DNA of 56,823 nucleotides from assembly GCA_021813505.1 (NCBI GenBank), contig JAKAKI010000019.1, positions 1 to 56,823 on the forward strand, in the 5' to 3' direction. The notes under the pieces are model-generated. The model was not told where the DNA came from, made no database searches, and worked only from the letters and a program-made list of their open reading frames with translations. Both the position numbers and the translations under genes were made by a program. Source of the stretch: a bacterium. GTDB taxonomy: Bacteria; Zixibacteria; MSB-5A5; WJJR01. Below, piece by piece: positions 2,323 through 12,412 of the stretch (its first letter is position 1; every line of letters starts with the position of its first letter).

Positions 2323-3882
2323 TCACGGACAGATTGCAGGGTATGGACTACAAACGCAGGGATTGCACGGCGCGGGGCCACCGCTGAAAACATACTCGAT
2401 CAGCCGGACAACGTCGAGCACGTCGTCTGCCCCATTACAATCGACGTCACCACGATCAAGATGAGGGCATGCGGGATCGATTGGGGGCTGACCGGCACCC
2501 GAGAATGCGTGGTCGATCAAGGCGATCACATCGAAGAGATCGAGAACGCCATCGGGGGCGGCGTCACCGTGGGATGAGCAATCGCATGATGGACCATAGC
2601 CGGCGAACACGGAAAAGGTGTAGCCGACGCGTTGGACGTTCGTGTACGTGCGGCCACTCCATTGCACGCCAATAAACGGTCCGCCGGTATCGGTGACGGT
2701 CATCAGGCCAAACTGGCCACCACCGGCATACGCCCCCTCGCTGTAGGGCCCGCCTTTGATGCTGCCGGATTGGTCAAGCGCTGCTGTCTGGAAGACGGGG
2801 AATGACGCCCCTCCGCCGGTGGCGTAGTCGCTGTGGGAGCCATCATCGATAGCCAGCATGTGCGCATCGCCGGAAACCTGGCATAGTCCCTTGATCTGAT
2901 TGTCCTTGATGAAATTCGCAATTTCGCGCCGCTCGGTTGTGTAGAGATACCAGCCATCGTCGCCGGTGACGCCGATCCACGGGAGTGAGTTGACCCAGAC
3001 GATCAGCGGATACACGCCGTTGGCGTCGAGCAACTGCTGCTTGAACCAGGCCTTCTGCGTCGTGCCCAGCATGGTCTTGGACGCGTTGTCCGGAGCAATT
3101 GCCGGGCTGCGCGCCGACCGCGAGTCGGTCACGATGAAGCGCACGCGGCCAACGCTGAACGACTGATAGATCGGGACATTGCCGGTGCCGGCCGCCAGTG
3201 GGTAATGCGGGACATACTCCTGGTAGGTCAGCCGCGACGCTTCCCGTCCGGGCGCCAGCGAGTCACTGTTGTTGGGGCCGAAATCGTGGTCATCCCACAC
3301 GTACGCAATCGCGACGTCACGGTACAGATGCGACTGGGTCACCGACGCGAGCACGGTATCGAATGCCCGGCGAAACACATTGCGATCATTGACGGCGATG
3401 TTCAGGTAGTGCAGGTCCCCCATGTGGAGAAAGAAGAGCGGATCGTGCAACCGGATTGTTTCGAAGACCGTGTGTGCCGATGCCGTCCGCGCGCAGGAGC
3501 CGAGAGCGAGAGTGAACGATGCGGCGCCAGTGGGAAAGGTGTGGAACCTCCCCGGCATCGCTGAGTCCATCACACCGCTGACTTCGACCATATAGAAATA
3601 CTGCGTGTTGGGCGCCAGGCCGTTGATCGGCAGCACCACGACCCGGTTGTTGAGCGCGGCATTCGCGGTATCGGGCAGCGAATACGACGGGGCGCTCATG
3701 TCAGAATTCGGGCTGACGACAAGACGCGCTTCGGCGCCATCGGCGATGACCTTGGCGCGCACCTCCGCCGAGGTCGGCGTGACCGCGCCCGACCAGACGA
3801 ATTCCACGAGGGGTGCGGCAACCGCATGAGGCGCCTGGGCCAGAGCGGCGGGAATCAACACCATTAGCATCGAGGATCGCAT
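2323..3882 (-). CDS. secreted PhoD-like metallophosphatase with dockerin-like tail
   Basis: A 519-residue exported protein that probably hydrolyses phosphomono- or diesters outside the cytoplasm. A signal peptide (residues 1-about 23) is followed by an Fn3-like N-terminal domain of the PhoD family (about 25-118). The phosphatase core shows GSCAR (128-132), HMGDLHY (153-159), WDDHDFGPNNSD (about 196-207) and later SGDAHML, all PhoD metal-site motifs. The C-terminal 85 residues form a dockerin-like pair ending CNPCVCSPYPAICP, shared with five other proteins in this window. The open frame begins with TTG at 3891, but ATG at 3882 is the better start. The exact substrate cannot be read from sequence. 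Confidence 0.88.
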   Translation of the reverse strand: MRSSMLMVLIPAALAQAPHAVAAPLVEFVWSGAVTPTSAEVRAKVIADGAEARLVVSPNSDMSAPSYSLPDTANAALNNRVVVLPINGLAPNTQYFYMVEVSGVMDSAMPGRFHTFPTGAASFTLALGSCARTASAHTVFETIRLHDPLFFLHMGDLHYLNIAVNDRNVFRRAFDTVLASVTQSHLYRDVAIAYVWDDHDFGPNNSDSLAPGREASRLTYQEYVPHYPLAAGTGNVPIYQSFSVGRVRFIVTDSRSARSPAIAPDNASKTMLGTTQKAWFKQQLLDANGVYPLIVWVNSLPWIGVTGDDGWYLYTTERREIANFIKDNQIKGLCQVSGDAHMLAIDDGSHSDYATGGGASFPVFQTAALDQSGSIKGGPYSEGAYAGGGQFGLMTVTDTGGPFIGVQWSGRTYTNVQRVGYTFSVFAGYGPSCDCSSHGDAAPDGVLDLFDVIALIDHAFSGAGQPPIDPACPHLDRGDVDCNGADDVLDVVRLIEYVFSGGPAPCNPCVCSPYPAICP

Positions 3883-3944
3883 CAGTCTCAAGGTAATCAG
3901 AAGTGCGGGATGGGCAAGGGGGGCGGGGGGGAAAATGCGAGAAT

Positions 3945-5384
3945 CTAAGGGCAGCCCGTCGGGTACGGGCCGCAGGTGCAGGGATCGCAGGGAGCGGGGC
4001 CTCCACTGAAGACGTGGTTGATCAGGAAAACGACATCAAACACATCGTCGGCGCCGTCACAGTTGGCGTCACCACGGTCGATATGCGGACAGGTGGCATC
4101 GCGGATCGGAGCGGTTCCACCGGTAAAGACATAGTCGATGAGAGTTACGACGTCGAGGACGTCGAGGACGTCGAACACATTGTCCGACTGAATGTCGCCG
4201 TTGCGGGAGCAGTTGCAGTCACAATTCAACAAGACTACGACTTTGTTGCTGTCGAGGTCGGTCACCGCCAGGTCCATGAATCCGCGCCGATCCAAGTCAG
4301 TCGCGATGATCGACCAAGGGTAACGGCCAACCGGAAGATATGACGGCTCACCAAATGAACCACTACCATTGTTTTTCAAGAGTGATACCTGCCCGAGATC
4401 GCGATCAATGACTGCAAGATCGACGGAAGCATCGCCGGTAAGATCTGCGGCAGTGAGAAGGAGAGCACTCCAGCCCACTCCGTATCTGGATTTCGTGGGA
4501 AATGTACCGTCCCCACTGTTCAGGAGGACATTCACGTTTCCGAAGTAGATAGTGGAAACCGCCAAGTCCACGTCGCCGTCTCCATCGAAATCAGCTCCCA
4601 CAACCGACCAAGGATCGTGGTCGACGTAGTAATCCGAGCGATTGGAGAATGTGCCATCACCGTTGTTCTTCAATACGGAGACTATATTCACCGCCAAGCA
4701 AACCACCGCCAGGTCAATGTCACCATCACCGTCCAAATCAGCAGCGAACACCGACTTTGAATCCGGGCCAGTTTGGTAAAAAGCTGTGTTTGTGAAATCC
4801 CCCGTGCCGTTGTTCTTCAACACTGTCACGCCCCCGATGGATTGGTCATTTGCCACCGCCAAATCAATATCACCATCGCCATCCAAGTCGGCCGCAGAGA
4901 TCGAGAGTGGCCAGCCTCCGGCGAGGTACTTGGACGCAGGAGCGAAGGTTCCGTCACCATTGTTCATCAACACTGCCACTTCGGAGCTGTCGATGTTGGC
5001 CACCGCGAGATCCAGATCCCCGTCACCATCGAAATCAGCAGTCGTGATCGCATTAGGTCCTGGGCCTGCCGCGTAGTTGACCTCTGCATGAAAGCTGCCG
5101 TCGCCGTTATTCTTCGATATCGAAAGACTGTCGTCACTGTCGGCGATTGCCAAGTCCTTGTCGCCATCGCCATCGAAATCACCTGCACAGACCGAGACCG
5201 GGCCTGCGCCGACCGGGTATGTTCTGGGTGATTGGAAACAAAAGTCCTGTGCGTTGGCATGCGATGCGGCAAAGAGCAGCAATGCCAAAAGAGAAACCTG
5301 AATTGTGGCCAGGTGCGGTCGCGTGTTCCACCTCTGCTGGTGCGGAAAAAGAAACCTGACAATGGAAGTATACCGGTCCGCCAA
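3945..5384 (-). CDS. secreted seven-bladed FG-GAP/VCBS propeller with dockerin-like tail
   Basis: A protein of up to 479 residues with a hydrophobic signal segment ending near HANAQ. Seven consecutive VCBS/FG-GAP repeats follow, each with a calcium-type DxDGDGxxDLAV core and NNGDGTF turn, which should close one beta-propeller. Repeats six and seven have weaker Asp ladders. The tail is the same dockerin-like pair as in the phosphatase and ends CDPCTCGPYPTGCP. A 9-bp unit repeated three times (4149-4175) inserts DVLDVL into the first dockerin loop. The start is uncertain: the frame opens with TTG at 5384, but a good promoter (5367-5394) overlaps it, so translation may begin downstream at a non-ATG codon. 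Likely a surface binding or adhesion protein. Confidence 0.82.
   Translation of the reverse strand: MADRYTSIVRFLFPHQQRWNTRPHLATIQVSLLALLLFAASHANAQDFCFQSPRTYPVGAGPVSVCAGDFDGDGDKDLAIADSDDSLSISKNNGDGSFHAEVNYAAGPGPNAITTADFDGDGDLDLAVANIDSSEVAVLMNNGDGTFAPASKYLAGGWPLSISAADLDGDGDIDLAVANDQSIGGVTVLKNNGTGDFTNTAFYQTGPDSKSVFAADLDGDGDIDLAVVCLAVNIVSVLKNNGDGTFSNRSDYYVDHDPWSVVGADFDGDGDVDLAVSTIYFGNVNVLLNSGDGTFPTKSRYGVGWSALLLTAADLTGDASVDLAVIDRDLGQVSLLKNNGSGSFGEPSYLPVGRYPWSIIATDLDRRGFMDLAVTDLDSNKVVVLLNCDCNCSRNGDIQSDNVFDVLDVLDVVTLIDYVFTGGTAPIRDATCPHIDRGDANCDGADDVFDVVFLINHVFSGGPAPCDPCTCGPYPTGCP
4149..4175. repeat. 9-bp direct repeat, three copies, inside dockerin-like domain
   Basis: The unit gacgtcgag occurs twice, followed by a third copy with one change. 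On the coding strand it adds three residues per unit to the DVFDV loop, giving VFDVLDVLDVV where the paralogous modules have VFDVI or VFDVV. It looks like a slippage expansion. Confidence 0.8.
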
Positions 5385-5394: not shown

Positions 5395-5684
5395 GAAGGT
5401 ACGCATGCGGGTGTTGTAGCCTAGCCCCTTGTGGGCGTTGCTGGTGTTCGCTATCACGGTGCACGGATGCCACGAACGATAATCCGGTGCCCACGGTCGA
5501 CGGGCACAAGGCCCTATGCTACGGATGGACTTATTCGGCTACGGCCCCCCGGGCTTGCGCCCGGGGCTATTTTCTGGCGCCCCTGCGGGGCTTTTCGGAC
5601 CGGGAGCTGTGTAGTGACTCTGTTGAAAAACAATGAGTTACGTGTGGTCATATCACTTTCCGCATTATCCTATTACAAAGCCTC
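5395..5684. other. intergenic stretch with small hairpins, no gene seen
   Basis: The gap between the propeller gene and the small cysteine-rich gene holds REP-like hairpins around 5545-5600 (for example ccccgggcttgcgcccgggg). No supported open frame is present. The promoter that follows is listed separately. Confidence 0.5.
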
Positions 5685-5713
5685 TTGACACCTGAACGTT
5701 TGTTCAGTATAAT
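5685..5713 (+). promoter_or_regulatory. perfect consensus sigma-70 promoter with palindromic operator in the spacer
   Basis: TTGACA (5685-5690), 17 bp, TATAAT (5708-5713): both boxes match the consensus exactly. The spacer holds the palindrome CTGAACGTTTGTTCAG (5692-5707), which fits GAAC-N4-GTTC, the Gram-positive LexA box pattern, and also CTG-N10-CAG. Placed between -35 and -10 it would block RNA polymerase when bound. A TetR-type operator is the alternative. The predicted leader to the ATG at 5803 is about 83 nt. Confidence 0.8.
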
Positions 5714-5802
5714 CCGATCAGATAAGTGAAGGGCGCAAAGCCCCGGCAAACAAGCTCGCAGCGGCGGGCGGGATGTGGAAGAACAAAGACAAGGAGTCAG
5801 CA

Positions 5803-6030
5803 ATGTCAGCGACACCCATCGGAATGGCGCTTCAGGGCACCGGCCGGCCGGTTCCCATGACCATCACGGCGACGGCGGTTTGTCTGTGCGGGACACCGTT
5901 GCGAGCACGGGCCGGACACTGGGACTGCCAGCACTGCGGGCGGGCATTCTGCCGTGAATGCGGCGGCCCGATGATGCGCAGCGGCGGATGTGATGTGTGT
6001 TCGGTGTGCGGGAGCGGAGCGTGCGGGTGA
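5803..6030 (+). CDS. 75-residue cysteine-rich zinc-ribbon protein, RNR-tail-like
   Basis: Ten cysteines occur in 75 residues (27, 29, 42, 45, 50, 53, 63, 66, 69, 74). The C-terminal part, CGGPMMRSGGCDVCSVCG, resembles the zinc-binding tail of class II (B12-dependent) ribonucleotide reductases, which has the form CxxCGxxMxxxGxCxxCxxCG. Here it stands alone, with no reductase gene nearby. The ATG at 5803 has an AAGGAG six bases upstream. It sits behind a perfect promoter with an operator-like palindrome, so it is probably strongly but conditionally expressed. A zinc ribbon of unknown role is the safe call; the reductase link is inference from motif shape. Confidence 0.65.
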   Translation: MSATPIGMALQGTGRPVPMTITATAVCLCGTPLRARAGHWDCQHCGRAFCRECGGPMMRSGGCDVCSVCGSGACG

Positions 6031-6364
6031 GATCACACACTGGTCGGGGGGCAGGGACACCCACTGACCAAGGTCAGTGGCACGCGGCCGGTGATGTCAC
6101 CCCCGCACAAGCGGGAGATTGCTTCGCTCCGCTCGCAATGACAGAGTTGAGTTGCTCGCTCGCAATGACAGAGTTGAGTTGCTCGCTCGCAATGACTACC
6201 TCTGTCTATCCACGGACCGTATTCCCACAGTCATTGCGAGGCGCGGCTTTATGCGCCGAAGCAATCCCAGCCTCTCCTATCCGGGGAAGCCGAGATTGCT
6301 TCGCTCCGCTCGCAATGACTGCTGCTCCGCTCGCAATGACTGCCTTTTCCGATAGGATCAATCT
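6031..6364. repeat. cluster of 'tcattgcgag' palindromic repeats
   Basis: The gap before the helicase is filled by inverted and tandem copies of a repeat built on gctcgcaatgac / gtcattgcgag. A 27-bp unit (cgctcgcaatgacagagttg plus seven bases) is tandemly repeated around 6130-6195. Inverted partners lie at about 6231-6262 and 6289-6340. No gene is supported here. Confidence 0.75.
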
Positions 6365-9300
6365 ATGAAGATGGCGCAACTGCAGGAGTTTGGGATTTCG
6401 TCGTGGTTTGTCGAGCGGTGGGCCAAGACGATCGGGCCGGAGTTGCTCGACTGGCAGGCGGATGCGATCCGGCATTTTGATTTGTTCGGACGCGCGTCGC
6501 GTGCGGACCAATCCCCTGCTTCGGGCCATGGGCGCGGCCTGATTGTGATCGCGCCGACGTCATCGGGGAAAACATTCCTGGCGGAGCTGGCGATGGCGGA
6601 GGCGCTGATGCGGCGGCGCAAGGTGGTGTACATTGCGCCGCTCAAGGCGCTGACCGCACAGAAGTATGAGCATTTCCGCGAAGTGTTCGCACCGCTGGGA
6701 TTCCGGGTGGCGATCTCGACGCGCGACCGCCGTGGCGCCGACAACGCATTGCGCCGGGGGAATTTCGATATCGCGGTCACGGTGTATGAGAAATGGCAGA
6801 ACCTGCTTCTGACGCATCTGGATATTCTGACCGCGGTCGATCTGGTCATCTGCGACGAACCGCAACTTTTGTTCGACCCCGGACGCGGCCCGACAGTCGC
6901 GAGTATTTTCGATGTGATTGCCACCGTGCCGCGTGCGCCACGGGTGCTGCTTCTGGCGGCACGGCTGCCGCAGACAGAATCGCTGGCGGAATATCTCGGG
7001 GCATCGATCCAGCGGGTGCACCGCCGTCCGGTGGAGTTGCGTCTGGGTGTGCTCGATAACGGACGTTTCCATTTCCGGGAGCACAATTCGACCGAAATCG
7101 GCGACGAGGCATTCCCCTGGGATGAACATCTCCCCGATGCCGAGCGGCCGATGGCGCTGTTGCACACGCTGGCCGAACGCGGCGAGCAGGTGCTGGTGTT
7201 TTGCCCGTCGAAAGCCGAATGCCACCGTCGCGCACAGGCGCTCGCCGAACGGCGTACGGCAACACTCGAATTGGCCGACGATGACCGCTGGCGTTTGCAA
7301 AGCGGGCCATCGCTGGCGGCGCCGCTTGCAGAATGGCTGTCGCGCCAAATCGCAGTGCATCACGCCGATCTGACACCGCATCAGCGGACGCTGGTCGAAT
7401 CGTTGTTTATCGCGGGACGGGTGTCGGTGGTGTTTTGCACCGGGACGCTGGCGTGGGGCGTGAATCTTCCCGCGACAACCGTGTTCATCGACGCGGAGAA
7501 ATATACGAGCGGCCCCCACGCGGGCCGTCCGGTTCCGATGCCATTGGAACGTTTGGAATTCGAAGGTATGGCGGGGCGCGCCGGGCGTCTGGGATTGAAC
7601 CATCAGACGGTCCCCCCCACTGCTGATGCGATCGGCCGCGGGATTGTATGGAGCCACACGCCGTGCGAAGCGGAAGTGTTGTGGCAGACATACATCGCAC
7701 CCCCGACGGATCACCGGTCCGACCCCGCCGCATCCAGCGCCCCGCCTGCCTTCGCCCCTGAACAACGGTTGCTCAACTGGGTGGTGGCCGGGCTGGCGCA
7801 TTCGCCAGCGGAGGCGCTGGCGCTGGCGGAGCGGTCGCCGTTTGGGAGAGCGGACAAGAGTGTCCGCTCCACCGATGAGTTGAATTCAGTTGAGGGTTTG
7901 GGAGGGCGAGGTTCCCGCCGAGCCTTATCTCCGCACGCGAATGCTGAGTGCTCGCTGCAGATTCTCCGCGCGCAGCATCAAGGCTCGGCAGGAGCCTCGC
8001 CCTCCCTGTCTGCTTCGTCCTCTCCTGCTGGTAGCACGGGCGTCCCGCCCGTGCGGCATGGGCAGGATGCCCATGCTACCACAACAAATTCCACCATCTG
8101 GGATCAGGCGGCGGCGCGGCTGGTCAGCGCGGGAATGCTGCAGATCGCCGGGGATGGGCGGTTGGTGCCCACGCCGCGCGGATCGAAGACGGCAGCGGCG
8201 GGACTGAGTGCCGCATCGGCAGCCGCGATTGTGCGCGTGTTGAATGCGTGCGGTGATTTTGATGCGGCTCTCTGGACGGCGTTTTTGTCGGCGCTGCCGG
8301 AGACATCCGAAATGCGTCTGTGGCACACGCTCCGTCACGGAACGCAGCGGCGCACCAGCGAGAGCGCGCAGATCACGGCGTTCTGGCAGGAACGTTTCGG
8401 CGAGGGATTCATCGAGTCGATTGCGCGGCGGTTCCCATCGGATCCCGCCGCGATCACGGTGCATTTCCCCAGCACCGCGGCGCAGACGCGCGCGATGCTG
8501 ACCGCGCTGGTGCTCGACGATTGGGCAGCAGGAGTGCCGACGCGCGATCTCGAGCAGCGGTTCGGCCTGCCGATCGGACGGCTCGAACCGACCGCCGATA
8601 TGATCGCGTGGCTGTTCGAGACGGCGGCGGCGCTCGCCGAGACGGTGGAACCGGCGCGGCGTTTCGCCGCCGACTGCCATCGCGCGGGATTCGAAATTGG
8701 CCACGGGATTCCAGCGTCACGGAGCCGGCTGGTCGAGGCGCTCGGCCATCTGGTGCCCCGCCAGACGGTGCTGGATCTGATCGACCGGGGCTGGGACGAT
8801 CCGGAAACATTGAGTTTGCGCTGCAGCGCCGATCTGGCCGGCCTGGCGCCGCCGGGAATTATCGACGAGATGCTGCGGCGGTGCACCGAGTATGTGGCCG
8901 AGGCGACGGCCGCCATCAGCGACGCGCCATCATCGGAAAACAATTCCGCCAATTATCCCACCCGCCGCACGCGGCGGGGGAAAACGAAACACGATCCGAA
9001 GGAGGACGTCATGTCACCGATTCTGCACCTGAGCGGCTCACCGTCGCATTCCCGCATGTCGATCGAACTTGCGGGACGGCCTGTGACGCTGCGATTGAAG
9101 AGTTTCAAGTACCTTTTGGCTTTGGCGACGGCGCGGATTCTTACACGCGATGGCTGGATCGCCAAATCGGACATCGAGGGCGGCGAAAATCAGATCAAGT
9201 ATCTCTATCAGTTGCGGCGCGAACTCGCGCAGGCGGGATCGAACGATGTCGCGAGTCTGATCGAGAACGACGGCAATGGGCATTACCGTCTGACCTTGCC

Positions 9301-9412
9301 GGCGCAGGCGATCCGTCTCGATCTGAACCGTCTGCTCGAGCATTCCGACTGGGATATCCGTTCGCGCGCCGAACGTCTGGCAGCCGCAGGATTCGCGGCG
9401 GCCGCGGCGTGA
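6365..9412 (+). CDS. Ski2/Hel308-like superfamily 2 helicase with C-terminal winged-helix-like domain
   Basis: A 1015-residue ATP-dependent nucleic-acid helicase. Motif I APTSSGKT is at 63-70, motif Ia APLKALTAQK at 91-100, motif II DEPQ at 164-167 (DExH variant), motif IV VLVFCPSK near 279, motif V GVNLP near 366 and motif VI GRAGR near 403. This order and the GVNLP/GRAGR signatures fit the Ski2-like group. Residues about 505-578 are translated interspersed repeats (positions 7896-8080) inserted without breaking the frame. From about residue 882 a separate domain resembles winged-helix regulators of the OmpR/SARP type. No strong ribosome site is seen before the ATG. Its exact substrate and role in repair or RNA metabolism are unknown. 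Confidence 0.85.
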   Translation: MKMAQLQEFGISSWFVERWAKTIGPELLDWQADAIRHFDLFGRASRADQSPASGHGRGLIVIAPTSSGKTFLAELAMAEALMRRRKVVYIAPLKALTAQKYEHFREVFAPLGFRVAISTRDRRGADNALRRGNFDIAVTVYEKWQNLLLTHLDILTAVDLVICDEPQLLFDPGRGPTVASIFDVIATVPRAPRVLLLAARLPQTESLAEYLGASIQRVHRRPVELRLGVLDNGRFHFREHNSTEIGDEAFPWDEHLPDAERPMALLHTLAERGEQVLVFCPSKAECHRRAQALAERRTATLELADDDRWRLQSGPSLAAPLAEWLSRQIAVHHADLTPHQRTLVESLFIAGRVSVVFCTGTLAWGVNLPATTVFIDAEKYTSGPHAGRPVPMPLERLEFEGMAGRAGRLGLNHQTVPPTADAIGRGIVWSHTPCEAEVLWQTYIAPPTDHRSDPAASSAPPAFAPEQRLLNWVVAGLAHSPAEALALAERSPFGRADKSVRSTDELNSVEGLGGRGSRRALSPHANAECSLQILRAQHQGSAGASPSLSASSSPAGSTGVPPVRHGQDAHATTTNSTIWDQAAARLVSAGMLQIAGDGRLVPTPRGSKTAAAGLSAASAAAIVRVLNACGDFDAALWTAFLSALPETSEMRLWHTLRHGTQRRTSESAQITAFWQERFGEGFIESIARRFPSDPAAITVHFPSTAAQTRAMLTALVLDDWAAGVPTRDLEQRFGLPIGRLEPTADMIAWLFETAAALAETVEPARRFAADCHRAGFEIGHGIPASRSRLVEALGHLVPRQTVLDLIDRGWDDPETLSLRCSADLAGLAPPGIIDEMLRRCTEYVAEATAAISDAPSSENNSANYPTRRTRRGKTKHDPKEDVMSPILHLSGSPSHSRMSIELAGRPVTLRLKSFKYLLALATARILTRDGWIAKSDIEGGENQIKYLYQLRRELAQAGSNDVASLIENDGNGHYRLTLPAQAIRLDLNRLLEHSDWDIRSRAERLAAAGFAAAAA
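7896..8080. repeat. two interspersed repeats inserted in frame in the helicase gene
   Basis: A long inverted repeat (gggcgaggttcccgccgagcc at 7902 and ggctcggcaggagcctcgcc near 7982) is followed immediately by a full copy of the 51-bp palindrome (8030-8080). Both are read through by the helicase frame, giving peptides such as GSAGASPS and RHGQDAHAT. Relatives lie between genes at 23528-23601 and 2265-2315. Confidence 0.85.
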
Positions 9413-10549: not shown

Positions 10550-12412
10550 GTGGCCACACAAACGGAAACCGAACGCAAGAATCCGGGCAAGCCGGAACGC
10601 ATCGGAGAGATAACACCGAATACTGATGATCTATTGCAGAAGGATCTTCCCCGGCCGGCGCGACGCGCCCCCGGCACGAAGCCATCCTCGCCGCTCGAAC
10701 TGGCCGAGGGTCCGCCGCCGGCGTACAACACGATCGATCTCGGCGATCCTGCGACTTCGACCGACGTGCTTCGTCCGGTGGAGTTGGGCGAGGAAGCGGC
10801 TGCGCCTGCCAGAGTGAGAGAGCCGATTGAGAGTCCCAAGCGCAGCGGCTCCGCTCCCAAGACTGGCGAGCCTGGTCTGATGGAAGGGATGACCCTCAAC
10901 GACGCCGTCGACACAGACCGCCACCACACAGCGGCTGCGACAGATCCGGTGCCGACTGCGCCGCACCCCGCTGAACCGCTCACGCCCACGAGTCCCAATC
11001 TGAAGGCGGCATTGGCCGGTGGCGTCATGGGGCCACAAGTCAGCACCAAGGCGGTTTCGCAGCATCGCGCGCCAGGCAAGACTGAGAGTCCGGCCAAATC
11101 GAAATTATGGATCAAAGTTGCCGGATATGCCGGCGTCACGCTGGCCGTTGTGATCGCGGTCGCGTTTCTGGTTGCGAAAAAGCCGGCGGTCGGCACGATC
11201 AGCGGCGTTGTGGTCGACGCGCAATCGGGGAGAATCATCCCCTCGGCAACGGTGGAGCTGGACGGCAAGAAGACCGCCACGACCAACGTGGCCGGTCTCT
11301 ACACCTTCGCGGACGTTGTCAGCGGGTCATACGTGATTAAAGCGACAGCGCCGGGGTACGAACCCCAAACAGGTACCATCAGTGCTTCCGCCCCACAAGC
11401 GGCACAGTTGTCTTTTGCGCTCGCGCCGTCAGCGCCCGCGGCACCCGCGCCGGGCACACCCGCCACACCCGCGGACGACTCCGACAGCACGCAATCGACA
11501 GCGTCGACCTCCACTTCACCGGGATTCGGCGGAGTGGAGCTGGTCGTGGACTTTGACGGGTATCTCGTCTTTGTCGATGGGGAAATCTACGGCAAGAACG
11601 CCAAAAAGCTGAAACGGCTGTCTTCTGGCGAGCACCGCATTGTGGTGCAAGCCGAGGGATTCCAGGATTTCTCGGCTACGGTGATGATCAAGGCGCGCGC
11701 CACAGCAACAATCACCATCGCCAAGGCGGATTTGACACCCAAGATCGATCCGATCAAACGCAGCCACGGGCTCTTCGCCGCTGGAAAAGACCTGGTCGAT
11801 CGCGGGCTGTGGGTGGCGGCCATCGACTCGTTCAACCTGGCGCTGAGTTCCGATCCGCAGAATGCCGACGCTGTACGCTATCGCGGCTGGGCGTACATGA
11901 AGTCGGGCGACACGGTCAAAGCCATCGACGATTTCAAGCACGCCGCTCAGATGTACGATGACACGAAGCGGGTGATGGAAGCGGTCACCTGCGCCGGGTA
12001 TCTGATTGATTTGAGGCCGGACGACCAGGCGTTGCTTCGCCAGCGCAGTGATTACTATCTGAGCCTGAGAGAATACGCCAAGGCGATCAGCGACATCGAG
12101 CACGCGATCAAGCTCGACAAGAAGTCAGTCGAGAGCCAGATGGCCCTCGGGGAGGCATATTATGCCTCCGGCGACTTCCGCCGCGCTGCCAAGGAATTCG
12201 ACCGGGCGCGCAAGATGTCCGGAGATCCTCTGAAGCCTTACATCCGCATGATCCTCGCGTACTACAATGCCGGGGAGAATGACGAACTGCTGAAGAAGTA
12301 CAAGGAGTTCGTGAAGATCGCGCCGCAAGACTTGCTCGACAAGCTGCAGCGTGATCCGGAATGGTTGCCGGTCCTGCAGATGATCGGTCCAGACGAACGG
12401 CACAAGAACTAG
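10550..12412 (+). CDS. membrane-anchored carboxypeptidase-regulatory-like/PEGA/TPR protein
   Basis: About 620 residues. A long disordered Pro/Thr-rich N-terminal part (1-180) precedes one transmembrane helix (about 189-208). A carboxypeptidase regulatory-like beta-domain follows (GTISGVVVDAQSGRIIPSAT..., about 212-293), then a Pro/Ala linker, a PEGA domain (about 327-397, with LVVDFDGYLVFVDGE and GEHRIVVQAEGF) and at least four TPRs to the end. The domain order suggests a cytoplasmic or periplasmic tail linked to an envelope-facing scaffold. The frame opens with TTG at 10484; GTG at 10550, with GGGGTGG just upstream, is the better start. A hairpin with a T-rich flank follows at 12440. Confidence 0.8.
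   Translation: MATQTETERKNPGKPERIGEITPNTDDLLQKDLPRPARRAPGTKPSSPLELAEGPPPAYNTIDLGDPATSTDVLRPVELGEEAAAPARVREPIESPKRSGSAPKTGEPGLMEGMTLNDAVDTDRHHTAAATDPVPTAPHPAEPLTPTSPNLKAALAGGVMGPQVSTKAVSQHRAPGKTESPAKSKLWIKVAGYAGVTLAVVIAVAFLVAKKPAVGTISGVVVDAQSGRIIPSATVELDGKKTATTNVAGLYTFADVVSGSYVIKATAPGYEPQTGTISASAPQAAQLSFALAPSAPAAPAPGTPATPADDSDSTQSTASTSTSPGFGGVELVVDFDGYLVFVDGEIYGKNAKKLKRLSSGEHRIVVQAEGFQDFSATVMIKARATATITIAKADLTPKIDPIKRSHGLFAAGKDLVDRGLWVAAIDSFNLALSSDPQNADAVRYRGWAYMKSGDTVKAIDDFKHAAQMYDDTKRVMEAVTCAGYLIDLRPDDQALLRQRSDYYLSLREYAKAISDIEHAIKLDKKSVESQMALGEAYYASGDFRRAAKEFDRARKMSGDPLKPYIRMILAYYNAGENDELLKKYKEFVKIAPQDLLDKLQRDPEWLPVLQMIGPDERHKN

Follow-up and report, generated by a model that had tools for sequence, protein, structure and literature searches.

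Which regulator controls a consensus promoter with a palindrome embedded in its spacer in a Zixibacteria genome, and what might the small cysteine-rich protein encoded behind it do? The locus lies on the forward strand of contig JAKAKI010000019.1 (assembly GCA_021813505.1); the whole stretch of 56,823 nucleotides that we analysed is referred to here as the window, and coordinates given by number alone are positions within it. We found that the -35 box (TTGACA, 5685..5690, plus strand) and the -10 box (TATAAT, 5708..5713, plus strand) match the consensus exactly, at 12 of 12 bases, with a spacer of 17 bp. An exact TTGACA-N16-18-TATAAT pair occurs once in the 56.8-kb window, which has a GC content of 60%, while approximately 0.001 such pairs are expected from base composition. 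The spacer contains the palindrome CTGAACGTTTGTTCAG (5692..5707, plus strand), in which two perfect 6-bp arms flank a 4-bp core that lacks symmetry, so that 12 of 16 positions are symmetric; no second copy was found in the window when up to three mismatches were allowed. A preliminary description of this DNA had reported exact promoter boxes, a 17-bp spacer and a palindrome within it, and each of these held. A Shine-Dalgarno sequence (AAGGAG, 5791..5796, plus strand) can be read ahead of an open reading frame that starts with ATG at 5803 and stops at 6028-6030. Just 5' of the promoter, positions 5547-5592 match the Acido-Lenti-1 RNA (Rfam RF01687, 53.7 bits, E 4.1e-11), and the same hairpin also scores as a terminator. 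Farther upstream, 2323-5384 encodes two minus-strand proteins with dockerin-like repeats at their ends, and a near-consensus minus-strand promoter (11 of 12 bases) is located at 5394-5367.

The palindrome fits 16 of 17 positions of the published delta-proteobacterial LexA consensus CTRHAMRYBYGTTCAGS. A LexA regulon in the genome itself was looked for by pattern search. The pattern TGAAC-N4-GTTCA occurs seven times in this genome. The copy most like the window operator, GTGAACATTTGTTCAC, has exact arms and lies upstream of recA (C59:11093, with the recA match beginning at 11298), and the lexA promoter of the same genome carries GGACAAATGTTCAGTAT, in which the left arm has one mismatch. A weak LexA-like box, TCATCATTTGTTCA, is found around position 1501 of L032, approximately 70 bp 5' of a recQ-like helicase gene. 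In this genome the motif therefore also lies upstream of further SOS genes (recA, lexA and, weakly, recQ). The reading in the preliminary description depended on the palindrome having other copies, and such copies exist, one with exact arms before recA and one with a single mismatch before lexA. The genome's LexA matches PF01726 (E 4.2e-21), and its translation contains the Ala-Gly site together with the Ser and Lys motifs of a self-cleaving LexA. The nearest relative, which belongs to the same genus and is 93% complete (G001; L158, L199), contains lexA and recA, each with a box; the small gene and the helicase gene that follows it in the window were not found there in our searches.

We found that boxes of this kind are widespread across Zixibacteria. 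Within the same family and order, orthologues of the small gene are preceded by TTGACA-n-CTGAACATTTGTTCAG-TAT or close variants; other families carry the operator CTGCACAAATGTGCAG at the same position, and across the phylum the stand-alone genes lie behind TTGACA-nCTGCACAAATGTGCAG-TAT or its TGAAC variant. In the orthologues, as in the window, the operator therefore overlaps the promoter. The lexA promoters across Zixibacteria contain boxes of the same kind, while recA has a box in a minority of families only. We scanned 132 genomes with the strict promoter-operator pattern TTGACNNNTGNACANNTGTNCAGTA and used the reversed pattern as a control. The strict pattern gave 90 matches in 77 of the 132 genomes and the control gave none. 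These matches precede 66 small genes, 11 lexA genes, 7 helicase genes directly, 4 dinB genes and one free helicase C-terminal domain, with one match unassigned. More specifically, 57 of the 90 lie 86-429 bp 5' of a stand-alone gene found by the protein profile and 3 lie before lexA; the other 30 comprise 9 further small six-cysteine genes, 8 lexA, 7 helicase, 4 dinB, the C-terminal domain and the unassigned match. The window operator itself is not one of the 90, as the pattern requires ACA in the core and the window has ACG. Since promoter, operator and gene order are conserved across Zixibacteria, the arrangement is beyond chance.

TetR sites, too, typically take the form of 16-bp palindromes within promoter spacers, and the preliminary description had left the choice between a LexA-like and a TetR-like operator. 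A repressor of the TetR family, or another palindrome-binding repressor, is the least probable of the readings weighed here, since the box precedes lexA phylum-wide and, in some families, also dinB and recA. Furthermore, no tetR gene was found downstream of the strict-pattern matches that were examined, and the two genomes in which LexA is not detectable (G016, G030) keep the helicase and have neither operator nor small gene. The LexA half of the alternative is thus upheld by the recA and lexA boxes and by the phylum-wide lexA boxes, the TetR half finds no support, and there is good support for the proposed tie to DNA damage. In family f14 (L221, L223, L224, L225), the same promoter-operator lies upstream of dinB, which encodes DNA polymerase IV, and lends further support to LexA. 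Our data indicate that the window operator is very probably a LexA box, and binding of LexA to it is strongly implied by these comparisons. Like the LexA operators of Firmicutes (CGAAC-N4-GTTCG) and delta-proteobacteria, the Zixibacteria box is a palindrome with the same spacing inside a promoter and precedes lexA, recA and dinB; unlike them, its main target is the operon of the small gene and the helicase gene, and it occurs with two half-site forms, TGAAC and TGCAC, within a single phylum. The Fibrobacter LexA motif, TGCNC-N4-GTGCA, is also a palindrome with this spacing. An acidic residue after NGVR in the LexA helix of families f1 and f2, which use TGAAC, is suggestive of a link between LexA residues and half-site type, to which f3, f4 and f13 show no clean fit.

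The first gene of the operon encodes a small zinc protein of 75 amino acids (5803..6030, plus strand). Stand-alone homologues, which the preliminary description had suggested looking for, are present in many genomes of the phylum and form two subfamilies, a two-ribbon form (families f1, f2, f3, f5, f11 and f15, including the window protein) and a short one-ribbon form (f8, f18, f19 and others). Both share a module with six cysteines, in the window protein C50, C53, C63, C66, C69 and C74 (5950..6024, plus strand), spaced as in the tails of ribonucleotide reductases (RNRs). The two-ribbon subfamily alone has in addition an N-terminal zinc element, C27-x-C29 ... C42-x2-C45 (5881..5937, plus strand), which is invariant in alignment A1 and for which beta-hairpins are predicted with a pLDDT of about 70-90. 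All six cysteines are kept in each of the nine small ORFs that were found via the operator rather than via their cysteines. Pfam and NCBIfam gave weak matches only, mostly to zinc fingers, and a search of PDB sequences with the family profile returned generic RING, FYVE and zinc-ribbon likeness only. The AlphaFold model consists of beta-hairpin zinc elements (pLDDT 73.9, pTM 0.51) and had no Foldseek match at E<=0.001. No match was found in the phage records searched; in a wider search, one viral contig and one Pseudoflavonifractor contig matched residues 29-52 only.

We found that the profile of the small protein, searched across the phylum, retrieves small stand-alone ORFs together with frames of about 500-1000 amino acids, and each of the 30 long frames that we examined encodes a class II RNR. 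The tails of the RNRs share a 27-residue six-cysteine layout with nearly all of the stand-alone ones, and the cysteine spacing of the window protein, 3-10-3-3-5, equals that of the genome's own RNR tail, although the window protein matches the RNR-tail profile weakly (E 0.004). The module is near-identical to the NrdJ tail described previously (PMC5704485), in which the spacing is 3-10-3-3-6 for S. nassauensis NrdJd. The RNR-tail likeness claimed in the preliminary description was thereby confirmed. Describing the protein as a free tail captures this likeness and is incomplete, given the upstream CxC/CxxC element, the intact RNR tail and the helicase in the operon. The window protein differs from a class II RNR tail or NrdJb in several respects: it has 75 amino acids rather than the 150-220 of that domain, its gene lies away from the RNR gene, part of its family carries the additional N-terminal zinc element, and its gene is linked to a helicase and apparently under LexA control. 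The shared module spans approximately 27 residues, a length at which convergence on a zinc ribbon could also account for the likeness. Some genomes contain a second, larger RNR (about 1230-1310 amino acids; L292-L296, L298, L309) with another tail type, CxxCxxFTMVRNGTCLKCxTCGxTSGCS.

We considered whether the small protein complements RNRs that lack a tail and ruled this out: in genomes that carry the small gene and in those that lack it, every RNR with a readable C-terminus ends in a tail of its own. The small protein is neither part of RNR nor a replacement for a missing tail, and it is dispensable for completing RNR because RNR retains its own. A role in redox chemistry can nonetheless be argued to persist, since a zinc ribbon alone needs four cysteines, yet all six are retained. 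In Stackebrandtia NrdJ, four of the six cysteines are proposed zinc ligands and two the redox pair, all six are required for electron transfer with TCEP as reductant, and electron transfer can pass between subunits (PMC5704485). In NrdJa+b, the tail domain is encoded by a separate gene (PMC5704485). In the same study, a cysteine-rich domain (CRD) expressed on its own failed to rescue activity in trans. From the tail likeness we infer a tie between the small protein and nucleotide metabolism, and the more specific proposal that it acts on RNR is tentative, standing somewhat short of an even chance. The small protein could instead be induced in the SOS response to inhibit RNR, acting as a decoy that competes with the enzyme's own tail and slows dNTP synthesis or DNA replication during damage. 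Against this, dNTP supply usually goes up, not down, in SOS responses, and a decoy has no need of a conserved putative redox pair. We consider this reading unlikely, even though the RNR has a tail with which a free copy would compete and tail-based inhibition has a precedent in class I RNR, Sml1, as listed among the references of PMC5704485.

The second gene of the operon encodes a Hel308-like SF2 (Ski2-type) helicase of 1015 amino acids (6365..9412, plus strand), with matches to Pfam DEAD (1.3e-22), NCBIfam PRK02362 (1.6e-65) and PDB Hel308 (1.5e-39). The preliminary description had not mentioned this gene. Hel308-like helicases are best known from archaea and eukaryotes. The motor domains of the window protein are of the Ski2-type SF2 class and align with archaeal Hel308, and domain 4 is recognisable (PF21280), from which helicase activity may be inferred by family membership. 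Unlike Hel308, the protein scores 164 bits where the curated NCBIfam cut-off is 1200, has DEPQ as motif II and ends in a 133-residue C-terminal domain with its own internal start signal and no database match. The structure model of the helicase is poor (pLDDT 40). PADLOC models of HamB also match the helicase (best E 7.5e-31), as an anti-phage defence pair of a HamB-type helicase and a small effector would have it. We regard such a pair as very improbable: the Hel308-type NCBIfam models score far better (1.6e-65), the small protein has no match to HamA, the partner expected in Hachiman (HamAB), or to any other PADLOC model, and the operon appears conserved phylum-wide under SOS control rather than sporadic.

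The helicase occurs in 98 of the 132 genomes (E<=1e-60), and in all 62 distinct stand-alone loci the next gene downstream, in the same orientation, encodes a homologous helicase. Small gene and helicase gene nearly touch or overlap in many loci. The two genes are 335 bp apart in the window, where repeats of GAGATTGCTTCGCTCCGCTCGCAATGAC and shorter pieces (6115..6345, plus strand) lengthen the gap, and no terminator is predicted between them. These repeats are built on GATTGCTTCGCTCCGCTCGCAATGAC. Such strict coupling argues for a link to the helicase at least as much as for one to RNR, and we therefore considered that the small protein of a LexA operon serves the helicase as an accessory subunit (an adaptor, a DNA-binding protein or a loading factor), with its RNR likeness reflecting ancestry or convergence and no action on RNR. 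The absence of both genes, in our searches, from the 93% complete genome of the same genus is consistent with this, as is the persistence of the operon while N-terminal parts of the small protein vary. Against it, 7 of the 63 loci that lead from operator to helicase have no six-cysteine ORF in between (56 have one), and so the helicase does not always depend on the small protein; furthermore, a plain zinc-ribbon adaptor has no need of six cysteines with RNR spacing. Action on RNR remains our first choice, and partnership with the helicase, for which the odds are about one in three, is almost as likely.

The helicase gene may also yield a third product. An in-frame Shine-Dalgarno sequence and ATG (AAGGAGG, 8999..9013, plus strand) lie 5' of the C-terminal domain (9011..9412, plus strand), which is possibly a winged helix and had no sequence match in Pfam or PDB. 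At this junction, an ATG with a Shine-Dalgarno match of at least 5/6 is present in 17 of 28 helicase ORFs, compared to 10 of 319 other in-frame ATGs. In one genome (L212), the C-terminal domain is a separate ORF driven by the operator. These data suggest a nested product, in which the C-terminal domain would be translated separately from the ATG at 9011.

Taken together, our best explanation, with a confidence of roughly 0.6, is a LexA-repressed operon whose small protein may act on class II RNR in trans. The promoter, the operator, the order of the operon and the tail similarity are features of the DNA itself. That this is a LexA-controlled SOS operon of Zixibacteria is, on comparative sequence evidence, highly likely. 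Without damage, LexA would occupy CTGAACGTTTGTTCAG between the boxes and block the near-consensus promoter; upon damage, activated RecA would induce LexA self-cleavage and the promoter would fire strongly. The derepressed message would then supply the RNR-tail-like zinc protein and the Hel308-like helicase, which may act on stalled forks by remodelling or unwinding them. The small protein, in which the putative redox pair C63 and C74 is kept, would most likely serve as a second, inducible tail for class II RNR in trans, relaying electrons or tuning RNR activity so that dNTP supply tracks repair demand. In its fullest form this proposal is possible and rather doubtful: LexA would release a detached RNR redox tail along with the Hel308-like helicase, and perhaps a third protein translated from a start codon within the helicase gene, and dNTP supply would thereby be coupled directly to fork repair.

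Our literature search, in which subscription papers were sparsely covered so that it is weak evidence of novelty, found no paper joining Zixibacteria with SOS or Hel308 with LexA; with the same sparse coverage, it found none on a gene for a stand-alone RNR zinc tail. The operon, including its probable SOS control, looks undescribed in the papers searched. Our data define a probable SOS box for the uncultured phylum Zixibacteria, and the two half-site forms within one phylum present a case for studying the evolution of LexA specificity. They also suggest that a highly conserved SOS target in this phylum is the pair formed by the RNR-tail-like protein with the Hel308-like helicase, through which a connection of RNR redox chemistry to the response to DNA damage could be tested.
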